DNA from: Taklimakanibacter albus
GTDB lineage: Bacteria > Pseudomonadota > Alphaproteobacteria > Rhizobiales > Aestuariivirgaceae
Assembly (NCBI RefSeq): GCF_016595235.1
Contig: NZ_JAENHL010000008.1
Span: 726,390-790,389 of the forward strand
Direction: 5' to 3'
Length of the DNA stretch: 64,000 nt
Numbering within the stretch: the stretch's first letter is position 1; each line of letters begins with the position of its first letter. Shown here in pieces: positions 6,317 to 60,436 of this stretch. The notes under the pieces were generated by a model. It searched no databases. It was given only the letters and a program-made list of their open reading frames with translations, and was not told the origin of the DNA. Position numbers and translations under genes: made by a program.

Positions 6317-6469
6317 CCCTCGCCCCTCGAAGAGGGGAGAGGGAGGGACCCATTGCGCAGCAATGGGAGGGTGAGGGGCCTCTGGGTGAGTTCTGCAAGA
6401 GGTTCCTCACCCTTCCCACCGCTGCGCGGCGGGCCCCTACCCTCTCCCCGCTGAAGCGGGGCGAGGGTT
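6315..6469. repeat. R1 palindromic repeat element (copy 1)
   Basis: Ends are inverted (AACCCTCGCCCC at the left, GGGGCGAGGGTT at the right). Inside are several purine-rich hairpins, including ACCCATTGCGCAGCAATGGG and CACCGCTGCGCGGCGGG. A close relative lies at 15973-16189 and shorter relatives at 36963-37101, 45814-45863 and 46255-46305. The element fills the whole gap between two convergent genes and supplies the last bases of both TAA stop codons. Confidence 0.75.
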
Positions 6470-10022: not shown

Positions 10023-10112
10023 ACTCGTCATGGCCAGGCCCCGACCCGGCCATCCAGCCGCGCTGCTATGCGGATGGACTGGGTGGCCGCCTCAAGGGCG
10101 GCCATGACGAGT
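10023..10112. repeat. R2 inverted-repeat element (copy 1)
   Basis: A 90-bp element between the ATPase and binding-protein genes. The ends are perfect 13-bp inverted repeats (ACTCGTCATGGCC and GGCCATGACGAGT), and internal hairpin arms include CCGCCTCAAGGGCGG. A second copy lies at 60326-60420. It probably folds in the operon mRNA and could set the ratio of binding protein to ATPase, as REP elements do in other ABC operons; this role is inferred. Confidence 0.75.
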
Positions 10113-10125
10113 GGAGGAGTACCAA

Positions 10126-11139: not shown

Positions 11140-11175
11140 CTGTTTTGTCCTCCCTTGTTGTCTAGCCAATCAAAC

Positions 11176-11290
11176 ACCCTCATGCTGAGGTGCGAGCGTA
11201 GCGAGCCTCGAAGCATGATCCAGGTACAAAGAGCTTGCCGCTTGCCACCCTTCGAGGCCCGCCTTCGGCGGGCACCTCAGGGTGAGGGTT
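11176..11290. repeat. R3 BIME-like repeat (copy a)
   Basis: Two facing hairpin units: the left arm reads ACCCTCATGCTGAGGTGCG then AGCGAGCCTCGAAG; the right arm reads CTTCGAGGCCCGC then GGCGGGCACCTCAG and ends GAGGGTT. The ends are inverted. The same architecture recurs at 26983-27094, next to a RAYT gene, and at 31614-31726. It lies between the adenine deaminase and BMP genes. Confidence 0.78.
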
Positions 11291-15972: not shown

Positions 15973-16189
15973 CCCTCGCCCCGCTTTAGCAGGGAGAGGG
16001 AGGGGACCCATTGCGCAGCAATGGGGAGGGTGAGGGGCCTCGCTGCGATTAGCCCCGTCATCAGACAGAATGAAATTGCTGAAATTGAACGAGGGGAGCT
16101 CCTCCTGAAGCAGGCCCCTCACCCTTCCCGCCGCTCCGCGGCGGGCCCCTACCCTCTCCCCGCTGCGCTACGCTTGCAGGGCGAGGGTT
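15973..16189. repeat. R1 palindromic repeat element (copy 2, longer)
   Basis: It begins CCCTCGCCCCGC and ends GCGAGGGTT, with the internal hairpin ACCCATTGCGCAGCAATGGG shared with copy 1 and the arms CCGCCGCTCCGCGGCGGG. About 60 bp of unrelated sequence (roughly 16042-16108) separates the two halves. It fills the gap between the convergent adenine deaminase and autotransporter genes and may act as a bidirectional transcription stop. Confidence 0.72.
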
Positions 16190-26964: not shown

Positions 26965-26982
26965 GTGATTAGACTTCGTCTC

Positions 26983-27094
26983 CCCTCACCCTGAGGTGCG
27001 AGCGCAGCGAGCCTCGAAGGGTCTGCCGCCGCATCCTCGCTCTATCCTGATGTATGCTTCGAGGGCCGCTTCGCGGCCACCTCAGCATGAGGGT
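26983..27094. repeat. R3 BIME-like repeat (copy b, next to RAYT gene)
   Basis: It begins CCCTCACCCTGAGGTGCGAG and ends CCACCTCAGCATGAGGGT, with facing arms AGCCTCGAAG and CTTCGAGGGC. It lies 28 bases beyond the 3' end of the RAYT gene, as expected when a REP-associated transposase keeps its own REP pair. Same family and orientation as copy c at 31614-31726. Confidence 0.8.
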
Positions 27095-31583: not shown

Positions 31584-31613
31584 TATGAAGATCTTCGCTT
31601 GGGCCGTTCCACG

Positions 31614-31726
31614 ACCCTCACCCTGAGGTGCGAGCGCAGCGAGCCTCGAAGGGTGTCTTGCAGCATACGCAACTCATCCTGATGGATGCTTCGAGGGCCG
31701 CTACGCGGCCACCTCAGCATGAGGGT
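31614..31726. repeat. R3 BIME-like repeat (copy c)
   Basis: It begins ACCCTCACCCTGAGGTGCGA and ends CACCTCAGCATGAGGGT. The arms AGCCTCGAAG and CTTCGAGGGC face each other around a short loop. Copies b and c are direct repeats that bracket the RAYT-puuE-guaD-uraD-puuD segment. It lies upstream of puuD and downstream of the BMP gene, so it may act as a processing or termination site between the two operons. Confidence 0.8.

Positions 31727-34832: not shown

Positions 34833-34849
<17 letters not shown>
33764..34849 (-). CDS. ABC transporter permease (second BMP system, first permease)
   Basis: 361 residues, BPD_transp_2 family, with the segment VWNIGAEGQFTMGAIFGGM near residue 90 and about nine hydrophobic helices. 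ATG 34849 overlaps the 3' end of the ATPase gene by 17 bases. It pairs with the permease at 32883-33758. Confidence 0.9.
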
Positions 34850-36382
<1,533 letters not shown>

Positions 36383-36386
<4 letters not shown>

Positions 36387-37510
36387 CCGCCCTGGCCCTT
36401 TTTTGCAGCCATTCTAGAGGGTGTTCGGGCCTGAAAGCCAGGAATTCGCCCGGTTCTCAACATCTCATCCCGTTCCAGAAGCTCGGCCACGGTGGCGGCG
36501 GCGATGATGGCGGGCTCCTTGGAGGTGATGCCGGCCACGCCGATCGGGCATTTGAAGGCGGCGAAACCCGCATCCGGGACACCCGCCTGGCGCAAACGGC
36601 TCAGGAATCGGGCTCTTTTGCTGGCGCTGCCAATGAGCCCGACATAGGGAAAACGCTTATCCCGAAGCGCCTTGTCGATGATCGCCAGATCCAGCGCATG
36701 GCTGTGGGTCATGACCAAAAGGAAACTATCACGGGGCGCCGCGGCGAGCTCGGCCAAGGGATCACGCGCCTCGACCGGGGTGACATTGGCCGGCATCGCG
36801 GCAGGGAACGAATCGGGCCGCGGATCGATCCAACGGATGGCGAAAGGCAAGGGTGCCAGCGCCAGGACCAGCGCCCGGCCGACATGACCGGCGCCGTAGA
36901 GATAAAGCGGCCGCTGCGTTTCGCCGAAGGATTCGATCAGGCTTCCGACTTCGGCCAATTTTCCCCCTCTCCCGTCCGCAGGATGGGAGAGGGTGGTCGA
37001 AGGCCGGGTGAGGGCTCTTTGATCGACCATAACTGTTTCAGAAGAGCCCTCATCCGCCCTGTCGGGCACCTTCTCCCATTGCTGCGCAACGGGAGAAGGG
37101 GAATTAACTGAGATGATACGTCTCTCGACATGATCCCTTTCCAGCCGGCCGGTTGTCCTGAACACTCCTGCCGCTTCCGCCGCCGCGAGCTCCCTGATCT
37201 CCGCGAGCACCGATGGATCGAAGATCTCGGTCAGCAATTCCACCCGGCCGCCGCAGCATTGGCCGAGCTCCGGGCCCAGCACATGGCGGCTCACCGACAT
37301 GGCGCGGCCGGACTTCATCATCCTTTGAGCTTCGGCAAGCGCGCGCCATTCGAGCGCGCCGCCGCCGATCGTGCCATGGAAACCGCGCGGCGTCAGGATC
37401 AGGCGGGCGCCCTCCTCACGTGGCGCTGAGCCTTCGACACGATAGACCGACACCATGGCGCAGGGCTCACCAGCTTCGAGCGATTTCGCTATGTGAGCCC
37501 AGACCTTCAT
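36383..37510 (-). CDS. xdhC: xanthine dehydrogenase accessory protein XdhC with an in-frame repeat insertion
   Basis: 375 residues. The N-terminal XdhC/CoxI domain (CAMVSVYRVEGSAPREEGA, FHGTIGGGALEW, LGPELGQCCGGRVELL) binds the molybdenum cofactor. The C-terminal Rossmann domain (LYLYGAGHVGRALVLAL, LVMTHSHALDL, YVGLIGSASKRARF) completes the protein, which sulfurates and inserts MoCo into XdhB. Between them residues 136-183 are encoded by an R1 repeat, so the linker is about 48 residues longer than usual. Both domains remain open and intact. ATG 37510 overlaps the xdhB stop by four bases. The longer upstream frame lies inside xdhB. Confidence 0.88.
36963..37101. repeat. R1 palindromic pair inside xdhC
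   Basis: Left unit 36963-37016 (CCCCCTCTCCC hairpin with GGGAGAGGGTGG, ending GGGTGAGGG); right unit 37047-37101 (CCCTCATCCGCCC, GGGCACCTTCTCCC, GGGAGAAGGGG). The two face each other around a loop flanked by CTCTT and AAGAG, so the whole could form one long cruciform. The right unit closely matches the repeats at 45814-45863 and 46255-46305. Its length keeps the xdhC frame open. Confidence 0.85.
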
Positions 37511-39819
37511 GCGGACATCGCCTTTACCGCCTTCAAAATCGCCTCCGGGGTCGCCGGCGCCTCCAGAGGCGGCGCCGTTCCGGGTTTGAGGGCGGCGATC
37601 GCATCGGTGATCGCCGAAAAAACCGACAGGGCCAGCATCAAAGGCGGCTCGCCCACCGCCTTCGAGCGGTAGATCGTATTGGCCAAGTTGCCGGGCGAGG
37701 CGAACAGCTTCACGCGGAAATCCGCCGGCACGTCGGAGGCGCATGGGATCTTATAGGTCGAGGGCGCATGAGTGCGTAAACGGCCCTCTTTGTCGAAAAC
37801 CAGCTCCTCGGTGGTGAGCCAGCCCATGCCCTGGACGAAGCCGCCTTCGATCTGGCCGAGATCGATCGCCGGATTGAGCGAGCGCCCGACATCGTGAAGA
37901 ATATCGACGCGGTCGACCCGCATCTCGCCGGTCAGCGTATCGATGGTCACTTCCGAGCAGGACGCGCCATAGGCGAAATAGAAGAACGGCTTGCCCTTCA
38001 CCTTGTCGCGGTTCCAGGTGATGTTGGGCGTCGCATAGAAACCCGTCGCCGACAATTGAATGCGCGCCTGATGGGCACGCTTCGCCAGCTCGCCGAGGCT
38101 CATGCTCTGATTGGCGATGATCACCCGCCCCTTCTCGAAGCGGATCTGATCGGGCGCCACCTGCCATTCGCGCTCGGCGAAAGCGATGAGCCGCTTCTTG
38201 ATCTGGGACGCCGCCTCCTTCGCCGCCATGCCGTTCAGATCGGAGCCCGACGAGGCGGCGGTCGGCGAGGTGTTGGGCACTTTGCCGGTCGTCGTGGCGG
38301 TGATCTTCACGCGATCCGGCGTGATGCCGAATTCCTCGGCCACCACTTGCGCCACCTTGATATAGAGCCCCTGCCCCATCTCGGTGCCGCCATGGTTCAG
38401 ATGCACCGAGCCGTCGGTATAGAGATGGACGAGCGCGCCCGCCTGGTTGAGATGGATCAGCGTGAAGGAGATGCCGAATTTGACCGGCGTCAGCGCCAGG
38501 CCCTTTTTGAGGATGCGGTTCTTCGCGTTGAAGTCCTTGATCGCTTCGCGGCGCGCATAATAGTCGCTGGTCTTTTCGAGCTCGGCCACGACTTCAGCGA
38601 TGATGTTGTCGGTGACCTTCATGCCGTAAGGCGTGCGGTCGCGCTTCGGCCCGTAGAAATTGCGCTTGCGCACATGGAGCGGGTCGAGCGCCAACCGGTG
38701 CGCGATGGCGTCCATCATCCGCTCGGCCAGCATCATGCCCTGCGGGCCGCCGAAGCCGCGAAAGGCGGTGTTCGACACGGTGTTGGTGCGCAGGCGCCGC
38801 GATTCGATGCTGACCGCCGGATAATAATAGGCATTGTCGGAATGGAACATCGCGCGGTCATTGACGCCGAGCGACAGATCGGCCGAATAGCCGCAACGCG
38901 ACAGGAGGCTCGCGTCGACCGCCGTCAGGCGGCCGGTCTTGTCGAAGGCGGCATCGTAGTCGATGCGCATGTCATGGCGCTTGCCGGTCATGATCATGTC
39001 GTCGTCGCGGTCGAGACGGCATTTCACCGGCCGGCCGGTTTTATGGGCGCCGAGTGCGGCGAGCGCCGCCCATTGCGCCGCCTGGCTTTCCTTGCCGCCG
39101 AAGCCACCGCCCATGCGCCGGCATTCGCAGGTGACGAAGGCATCGGCCACGCCCAGCATCTTGGCGACGCAATGCTGCACCTCGCTCGGATGCTGGGTCG
39201 AGGAATAGACGGTCATGCCGCCCGCTTCTTCCGGCATGGCGAAAGCCACCTGGCCCTCGAGATAGAAATGCTCCTGGCCGCCGACGTGGAAACTGTCGGA
39301 GAGGCGCATTTTCGCGGCCGCGATCCGTTTTTCGGGCTCGCCGCGGCGGAACTCGTAGGGCGGCAGCACGTCCGGCGTGCCCTGCTCCAGTGCATCCTCG
39401 ACGGTGATCGCGGCGGGGTCCTTGGCGATTTCGATCCTGGCGCGCCTGGCCGCGCGGCGCGCCTGATCATGTGTCCCGGCCACCACCGCGAAGACGACCT
39501 GGCCGTGGAACAGGATCTCGTCCTCGGCGAAGATCGGATCGTCGCCCATCGCCGGACTGCAATCATTGACGCCCGGAATATCGGCCGCGGTCAACACCGC
39601 AACGACACCCGGAGAGTTACGCACCGCATCGAGGTCACACCGCGTGATCCGGCCTTTTGCGCCTTCGCTTGCATAACCCGGCGCCACATGCAGCGTGCCT
39701 TCGGGCTCGCGCATGTCGTCGATATAGATCGCCCGGCCCTGGACATGCAGCGCGGCGCTGTCATGGGCGAGCGCCAGGCCCACCGTCTCGGTCGTGAAAC
39801 GTTTGACCTCAGCCGGCAT
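37507..39819 (-). CDS. xdhB: xanthine dehydrogenase molybdopterin-binding subunit
   Basis: 770 residues, xanthine oxidase large-subunit family: HVQGRAIYIDDM, GQEHFYLEGQVAFA (Gln of the Mo site), RRMGGGFGGKE, FRGFGGPQGM, NHGGTEMGQGLYIKVAQV and EVTIDTLTGEM with the catalytic Glu region VGEPPLML near the C terminus. It oxidises hypoxanthine to xanthine and xanthine to urate. It overlaps xdhA by 11 bases and xdhC by four, so the three subunits are made from one mRNA. Confidence 0.94.
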   Translation of the reverse strand: MPAEVKRFTTETVGLALAHDSAALHVQGRAIYIDDMREPEGTLHVAPGYASEGAKGRITRCDLDAVRNSPGVVAVLTAADIPGVNDCSPAMGDDPIFAEDEILFHGQVVFAVVAGTHDQARRAARRARIEIAKDPAAITVEDALEQGTPDVLPPYEFRRGEPEKRIAAAKMRLSDSFHVGGQEHFYLEGQVAFAMPEEAGGMTVYSSTQHPSEVQHCVAKMLGVADAFVTCECRRMGGGFGGKESQAAQWAALAALGAHKTGRPVKCRLDRDDDMIMTGKRHDMRIDYDAAFDKTGRLTAVDASLLSRCGYSADLSLGVNDRAMFHSDNAYYYPAVSIESRRLRTNTVSNTAFRGFGGPQGMMLAERMMDAIAHRLALDPLHVRKRNFYGPKRDRTPYGMKVTDNIIAEVVAELEKTSDYYARREAIKDFNAKNRILKKGLALTPVKFGISFTLIHLNQAGALVHLYTDGSVHLNHGGTEMGQGLYIKVAQVVAEEFGITPDRVKITATTTGKVPNTSPTAASSGSDLNGMAAKEAASQIKKRLIAFAEREWQVAPDQIRFEKGRVIIANQSMSLGELAKRAHQARIQLSATGFYATPNITWNRDKVKGKPFFYFAYGASCSEVTIDTLTGEMRVDRVDILHDVGRSLNPAIDLGQIEGGFVQGMGWLTTEELVFDKEGRLRTHAPSTYKIPCASDVPADFRVKLFASPGNLANTIYRSKAVGEPPLMLALSVFSAITDAIAALKPGTAPPLEAPATPEAILKAVKAMSA

Positions 39820-45791: not shown

Positions 45792-45813
45792 GTTGCGGCG
45801 CGCACCAAAAAAT

Positions 45814-45863
45814 CCCCCTTCTCCCGCTTGCGGGAGAAGGTGCCCGAAGGGCGGATGAGGGTG
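45814..45863. repeat. R1-type repeat, left border of the DUF559 cassette
   Basis: 50 bp: CCCCCTTCTCCCGC then GCGGGAGAAGGTGCCC then GGGCGGATGAGGGTG. It is an almost exact inverted copy of 46255-46305 and matches the right half of the repeat inside xdhC. It ends 12 bases before the DUF559 start codon. Confidence 0.85.
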
Positions 45864-45875
45864 TATGGTACCGCC

Positions 45876-46250
45876 ATGACAACGCGGCAAATTGAGCCCA
45901 AGCGCCTCGATCAAGCTCGCCGCTTACGCCGGAGTCAAACTCCGGCGGAGGAGAGGTTGTGGTCAGGCCTACGCGCTCGGCGGCTGCAAGGACATAAATT
46001 CATTCGCCAGCATTCTGTTGGCCCCTTTACGGTCGACTTTCTTTGTCGCGAAGCCGCCCTCATCATTGAGGTCGACGGTGCAACCCATTCGGAGGATCGC
46101 GACATAGATTACGACGCGCGTCGCACGGCCTATCTCGAGTTACAGGGGTATCGCGTCCTCCGCATCCTCAATGACGATATATTTCATCGCTTCAACGATG
46201 TGATGGATATGATCCTTCTGGCGCTCGCGGATAAGCTGCCGCCAGACTGA
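45876..46250 (+). CDS. DUF559-family endonuclease-like protein
   Basis: 124 residues, related to very-short-patch-repair-type PD-(D/E)XK nucleases. N-terminal ARRLRRSQTPAEERLWSGLR and LQGHKFIRQH, then the catalytic-like FTVDFLC (Asp) and LIIEVDGATH (Glu-x-Asp), and the C-terminal YRVLRILNDDI. ATG 45876 is used; the frame is open upstream through the left repeat. The gene is exactly enclosed by inverted R1-type repeats, so it looks like the cargo or the mobiliser of a small element. Activity on DNA is inferred from the family. Confidence 0.82.
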   Translation: MTTRQIEPKRLDQARRLRRSQTPAEERLWSGLRARRLQGHKFIRQHSVGPFTVDFLCREAALIIEVDGATHSEDRDIDYDARRTAYLELQGYRVLRILNDDIFHRFNDVMDMILLALADKLPPD

Positions 46251-46254
46251 CCAA

Positions 46255-46305
46255 CACCCTCATCCGCCCTATCGGGCACCTTCTCCCGCAGGCGGGAGAA
46301 GGGGG
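46255..46305. repeat. R1-type repeat, right border of the DUF559 cassette
   Basis: 51 bp, inverted relative to 45814-45863: CACCCTCATCCGCCC, GGGCACCTTCTCCCGC, GCGGGAGAAGGGGG. It differs from the left border by one indel and a few substitutions. It starts four bases after the DUF559 stop codon. Confidence 0.85.
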
Positions 46306-46335
46306 AATAAGGATGATGTGCGCAATCGTCAGTCT

Positions 46336-60325: not shown

Positions 60326-60420
60326 CGTCATGGCCGGGCCTCGACCCGGCCCTCCAGCCTCACCGCTACACAGCTGTTGCACGGATGGGCTGGATGGCCG
60401 CCTCAAGGGCGGCCATGACG
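60326..60420. repeat. R2 inverted-repeat element (copy 2)
   Basis: Ends CGTCATGGCC and GGCCATGACG are inverted; the inner arm GGCCGCCTCAAGGGCGG is identical to copy 1 at 10023-10112, and the left part (GGGCCTCGACCCGGCC) is very similar. It lies between convergent genes, where it could act as a terminator. Confidence 0.78.
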
Positions 60421-60436
60421 AGAGGTGGGTGTACCG

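Follow-up and report, generated by a model that had tools for sequence, protein, structure and literature searches.

The RPEs of Rickettsia are palindromes of roughly 100-150 bp that are translated in frame inside conserved proteins, as described in three papers (PMC10969869, PMC3733652, PMC2267715). Outside Rickettsia, translated palindromes have mostly been reported as scattered cases. One of these sources places REPs inside genes of O. terrae, Thauera, Xanthomonas and others, reports different REPs at about the same recB site in two Xanthomonas species, and suggests flexible linkers or loops as neutral REP sites (PMC3733652). An earlier note on the DNA studied here, which held that translated repeats of this kind are rare outside Rickettsia-like elements, therefore understated the literature. 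A second group of described repeats, comprising RIME / AB-C of rhizobia and Bru-RS of Brucella, is intergenic, palindromic and built of shared modules. Here we examined a stretch of 64,000 nucleotides of Taklimakanibacter albus (the window), in which a palindromic repeat that we call family A occupies the joint between the two domains of the xanthine dehydrogenase accessory protein XdhC.

A palindromic element in frame within xdhC

The product of the window's xdhC scored 265.7 with the NCBIfam model TIGR02964 (XdhC), above the curated cut-off of 161.6, and carries both Pfam domains of the family (Table 1). Directly ahead of it lies an xdhB-like gene (37507-39819), and the next gene after it encodes an ABC-transporter-like ATPase (34833-36386); the names of both neighbours come from a reading of their translations.

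Table 1. Features of the xdhC locus (positions in the window)
Feature	Position	Strand	Basis
xdhC, xanthine dehydrogenase accessory protein, 375 aa	36383..37510	-	ATG at 37510; TIGR02964 above cut-off
XdhC_CoxI domain (PF02625), residues 11-70	37301..37480	-	Pfam match
Family-A bipartite palindromic element, in frame, residues 136-183	36961..37104	-	sequence, copy alignment, fold
Arm 1 (coding order), encodes ...EKVPDRADEG...	37042..37104	-	boundaries by eye from sequence and copies
Spacer between facing arms, 22 nt, variable among copies	37020..37041	-	sequence and copies
Arm 2 (coding order)	36961..37019	-	sequence and copies
XdhC_C Rossmann domain (PF13478), residues 202-344	36479..36907	-	Pfam match

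The element comprises 144 nt, exactly 48 codons, free of stops and in frame. Its facing arms share a longest ungapped match of 19 nt across a gap of 22 nt, and a Pfam domain lies on either side, which bears out the proposal of the earlier note that residues 136-183 are encoded by a facing repeat pair between two intact domains. The RNA fold of the element reached −95.9 kcal/mol versus −52.7 (sd 4.1) for 200 dinucleotide shuffles, none of which was as good (z = −10.5); a hairpin of about −96 kcal/mol might conceivably slow translation. The codon-usage score of the insert was −22, a value like that of non-coding DNA, against +39 and +24 for the flanking parts of the gene.

An AlphaFold2 model built on a 30-row alignment gave a pLDDT of at least 90 for 240 of the 375 residues and of less than 50 for residues 137-169 and 180-186, where low values would be expected from the small number of aligned rows over the insert alone. 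The insert is probably disordered, and the low-confidence linker of the model agrees with the interdomain site that had been assigned to it. The peptide EKVPDRADEG had been put forward as a fingerprint of the repeat. It is present alike in XdhC of the window's genome and of its closest relative (Rhizobiales bacterium Y(2018), G055), whose element shares that arm module; the peptide thus marks the arm and is not specific to this single element.

Families A and B in the genome and the genus

A family-A search of the window's own genome (G000, 7.17 Mb) returned at least 80 matches, which merged to at least 39 places. Scoring covered 40 of the 88 first-look candidates of this genome, with the same limit in the others, so that all repeat counts are lower bounds. 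Some of the 39 places were single arms and two fitted a second family, B, better; when the family-B places examined were added, the number rose to at least 48. According to a codon-usage gene caller, 38 of the 39 examined places were intergenic, the copies commonly lying 5-50 nt from the neighbouring gene, and the copy of xdhC was the only one inside a gene, a distribution unlike that of the Rickettsia elements. Since the gene caller was unreliable on such genes (it labelled the xdhC copy of G055 as intergenic), we added a second coding test, which required a reading frame that stays open across the element and coding signal on both sides. Of 81 copies from the genus, just two scored positive on both sides with at least one side above 8, those in xdhC of G000 and of G055. 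In three further genomes (G054, G056 and G057), none of the 26 copies examined, which were those of the best loci, was inside a gene. Overall, 129 distinct places were examined in the genus (48 + 55 + 26), a count that leaves aside one G055 place with too short a flank and covers contig-edge and arm-only places in part; two of the 129 were in genes, in both cases xdhC.

At least one stop-free frame was found in all 27 family-A copies tested, with a mean of 2.7 of the 6 frames versus 1.3 after shuffling. Most of the 27 copies compared start with TTCCC and finish with GGGAA, and inspection of their outer ends by eye revealed no terminal GTAG or CGTC tag. The ends of the element are inverted, but comparison by eye with the empty xdhC sites of G057 and G054 brought out no target-site duplication. 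Arrival of the element by insertion rather than by recombination is therefore an inference. A search for Y1_Tnp/RAYT (PF01797) gave no match in the window's genome and was positive in 5 of 14 control genomes, so that a RAYT-driven spread of family A was rejected. All nine listed Rfam matches were microRNA models far under their gathering scores and were taken as chance. Two of 72,556 plasmid records, both Rhizobium plasmids, matched the element (31 identical bases in one case, 55 nt at 83.6% in the other).

The window also holds other repeats. Another dispersed family (ACCCTCAxxCTGAGGTGCGAGC...GAGCCTCGAAG) has copies in both orientations at 11165-11213, 26971-27094 and 31603-31726; a third palindromic family (CCCCTCACCCTTCCC...GGGCCCCTACCCTCTCCCCGCT) has direct and inverted copies at 6393-6467 and 15973-16165; and a 56-nt direct repeat, 86% identical, is found at 10062-10117 and 60373-60428, 50 kb apart.

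We compared the XdhC linkers of the genus, counting their length from GxCCGG to the Rossmann GAGHVG. The linkers of G057 and G054, two species of the same genus that lack the element and whose xdhC looks intact, measured 66 and 68 residues, versus 116 in G000 and 139 in G055; the incomplete genome G056 gave no clear xdhC match. In G055, a different repeat, belonging to family B, occupies the same joint in frame. It has the arm module in common with family A and another, longer centre. This element matches at least 39 other near full-length places of G055 at 82-91% identity and fewer places of G000. Family B was inside a gene at 1 of 37 evaluable G055 places (xdhC) and at none of 11 G000 places. 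In the window, family-B-type arms that match the G055 xdhC element face each other about 420 nt apart at 45812-46316 (G000:C8:772201-772258 and 772623-772705).

Four intergenic sites were common to G000 and G055 among the 19 G055 copies tested. Three of them kept the arms and an alignable spacer of the same length, while at the fourth (L074 versus L017) the spacer and near flank differed within wider flanks that were 96% identical, hinting that elements may be replaced or re-inserted at old sites. Since spacers of the same length are kept at most common sites but the xdhC elements differ, xdhC would have been hit twice, or once with a later replacement. Between G000 and G055, dN/dS was 0.13 for the N domain and 0.05 for the C domain; between the insert-free G057 and G054 it was 0.16 and 0.17, respectively. 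The C-terminal part of the xdhB-like neighbour gave 0.05 (G000/G055) and 0.14 (G054/G057). The low values of the domains indicate that xdhC is under purifying selection.

Repeats at the same joint in other lineages

To the genus we added further XdhC-type loci; from the named genomes scanned, the best 80 of 572 XdhC relatives were retained. Of 186 loci fetched, 25 did not show both linker motifs, and the rest gave 142 distinct sequences. Their median linker was 73 residues long and eight linkers reached 95 residues or more. In five of these eight, the linker carried a repeat dispersed in its own genome: G000, G055 (L121), Rhizobiales bacterium YIM 77505 (L127), a MAG labelled Pseudoxanthobacter soli (L162) and genome G466 (L364). 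This own-genome test covered these five linkers. The insertion described in the earlier note is absent from most of the relatives measured, including G057 and G054, yet an insert in this linker is not unique to the window, with other repeats in G055 and three further lineages. The insert of YIM 77505 recurs at 83-86% identity over 172-184 bp at four places and more weakly elsewhere. One arm of the linker repeat of the Pseudoxanthobacter-labelled MAG matches dozens of places and the other arm three, and the repeat of G466 has 14 other near full-length matches in that genome. All three are in frame. Like that of the window, XdhC of G055, YIM 77505, the Pseudoxanthobacter-labelled MAG and G057 scored above the TIGR02964 cut-off and carried both Pfam domains; in XdhC of G466 both domains were recognised by reading the sequence.

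The remaining long linkers (L146, L149 and L200, from gammaproteobacterial MAGs; 103-126 residues) were not counted as repeat inserts, with folding z of −2.0, −0.2 and −0.1 against 20 codon shuffles; they hold short hairpin-like stretches and further translated repeats are possible there. Two somewhat shorter linkers (L036 and L275; 88 and 94 residues) contained no strong palindrome. We also searched 397 genomes of the order and looked at 43 loci, 30 of them best matches and 13 split ones, of which 38 could be given a linker length. The only insert among these was that of the Pseudoxanthobacter-labelled gene; the linker of L267 is the same as that of L162.

Of 11 other copies tested in YIM 77505, nine were intergenic and two lay at the edge of a called frame. 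The 26 copies evaluated in the Pseudoxanthobacter-labelled MAG comprised 13 intergenic, eight edge, four inside a called frame and the one of xdhC. Three of those inside (L227, L336 and L338) were rejected as in-gene copies because one of their flanks scored negative. The fourth, L228, scores as coding on both sides; having no Pfam match and reading like a wrong-strand frame, it was set aside rather than excluded. In G466, nine other copies were divided into six intergenic, two edge and one inside a called frame (L386), which was rejected with one side scoring negative. Beyond the genus, then, there is less support than within it for xdhC as the sole gene hit.

To examine the independence of the inserts, we built a tree of the 114 XdhC proteins whose linkers reach 60 residues or more, leaving out the middle of the linker. 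On this tree, whose bootstrap was not fully settled, the insert label required four changes, at least three of them forced by well-supported branches, versus a mean of 4.9 for shuffled labels. Five insert events, with different families in G000 and G055, are the simplest count, the tree itself needing four. As a control, facing palindromes with arms of at least 18 and a spacer of at most 160 were sought in 80 xdhC neighbourhoods (396 kb, about 362 kb of it called coding). They were present in two xdhC linkers (L121 and L127) and at a single place outside called genes, while all other called genes were free of them. This control is small, excludes G000 and G466 and has a threshold above the L162 insert; it supports the view that such palindromes are rare in genes. 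The recurrence count carries ascertainment, XdhC having been examined because an earlier finding named it.

Explanations for the insert and comparison with described repeats

We consider it probable that a non-RAYT, RIME/BIME-like intergenic palindrome is accepted now and then, as a neutral passenger, by a linker tolerant of any in-frame insert that lacks stops, at a joint that is a recurrent landing site. A dispersed bipartite element that normally lies between genes would have been copied into the joint between the two domains of XdhC. Because the copy is stop-free in frame and its length is a multiple of three, the ribosome would read through this family-A copy in the cell, and the protein would gain 48 residues with neither domain lost. 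The insert would then be retained as a passenger that is neutral or almost so. The other palindromic repeats that G055, YIM 77505, the Pseudoxanthobacter-labelled MAG and G466 would have received at the same joint suggest that it is an unusually safe landing site. That insertion was the direction of change and that the insert is neutral are inferences. Five hits on one linker could also be compatible with selection or with a targeting preference.

The recurrence might mean that the joint is a site of convergent recruitment in the order, where a hairpin pause or a disordered spacer improves maturation or regulation. This we regard as doubtful, and if it were true, selfish intergenic repeats would be a source of protein linkers. 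The insert might be useful, and have been gained repeatedly, if the hairpin between the two domains makes ribosomes pause and thereby lets the N domain fold ahead of the rest, or if the longer linker alters the hand-over of cofactor from XdhC to the enzyme. Different repeats at the same joint in five genomes, the strong fold (z = −10.5) and the retention of both Pfam domains in the inserted proteins (in G466 by sequence reading only) speak for such a use. We find it unlikely, however, as 137 of the 142 distinct XdhC-type sequences have no confirmed repeat insert, the genes of G057 and G054 look intact without it, the inserts differ in sequence, length and spacer, and dN/dS of the domains shows no consistent shift between the inserted and insert-free pairs.

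It is likewise improbable that xdhC DNA or its transcription attracts repeats, which would make the joint a hotspot of mutation and not just a tolerant site. Such targeting is favoured by the location of the genus's only two in-gene copies, among the places examined, in xdhC, and by the control, in which strong facing palindromes occurred in two xdhC linkers, no other called gene and one place outside. Nevertheless, inspection by eye of the five insertion points revealed no common target motif, the repeats differ, and tolerance alone predicts the same pattern.

A single ancient insertion, inherited by all and lost many times, in which gene conversion with local repeats replaced the original sequence, has little probability. 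The sister rows G000 and G055, which carry different repeats at one site, allow one replacement there, and spacer and flank likewise differ at one of the four common intergenic sites, but many insert-free lineages separate the insert bearers and the tree needs four changes, at least three of them forced. Finally, an artefact of sequence or assembly, or the chance read-through of a broken gene, would account for the non-coding codon usage of the insert (−22 versus +39 and +24 at its sides) and is highly improbable given its exact multiple of three, its lack of stops, domains under purifying selection and the same design in four further genomes.

In five genomes this one protein joint has taken up repeats that differ from each other, while among the places examined in the window's genus a copy was inside no gene but xdhC. 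This recurrence at one joint makes the choice between tolerated accident and protein raw material directly testable in one enzyme system. The case is also a warning that gene callers based on codon usage may overlook or split genes of this type, as our simple caller did in missing xdhC of G055.

Among described systems, the xdhC element resembles the RPEs in being palindromic, 144 nt long, strongly folded (z = −10.5) and open in frame within a conserved protein. It differs in distribution: RPEs, compared here by description only, are known for in-gene sites and their copies are often in frame in genes, whereas only 1 of the 39 examined places of G000 and 2 of the 129 places of the genus were in genes. 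With the GTAG/CGTC REPs, as portrayed in PMC3733652, it shares mostly intergenic palindromes, often dimers near genes, with few in-gene copies; the elements here, however, are 144 to about 193 bp long and have no terminal GTAG or CGTC tag by eye. The RAYT-associated REPs and REPINs similarly form facing palindrome pairs across a genome, but G000 has no Y1_Tnp (PF01797). The word XdhC is absent from the main text of PMC3733652, and no report of repeats in XdhC was found in the literature searched.

In organisation, the element also resembles RIME / AB-C and Bru-RS. Families A and B form a mainly intergenic mosaic of shared palindromic modules, with common arms and different centres, and 31 bases of the arm recur identically in a Rhizobium jaguaris plasmid. 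Descent from RIME-like elements, judged here by description, is plausible though not proven; no report of translated copies of RIME / AB-C or Bru-RS was found in the literature searched. Taken together, translated palindromes are of a known kind; what looks new is that different repeat families have used a single linker repeatedly.
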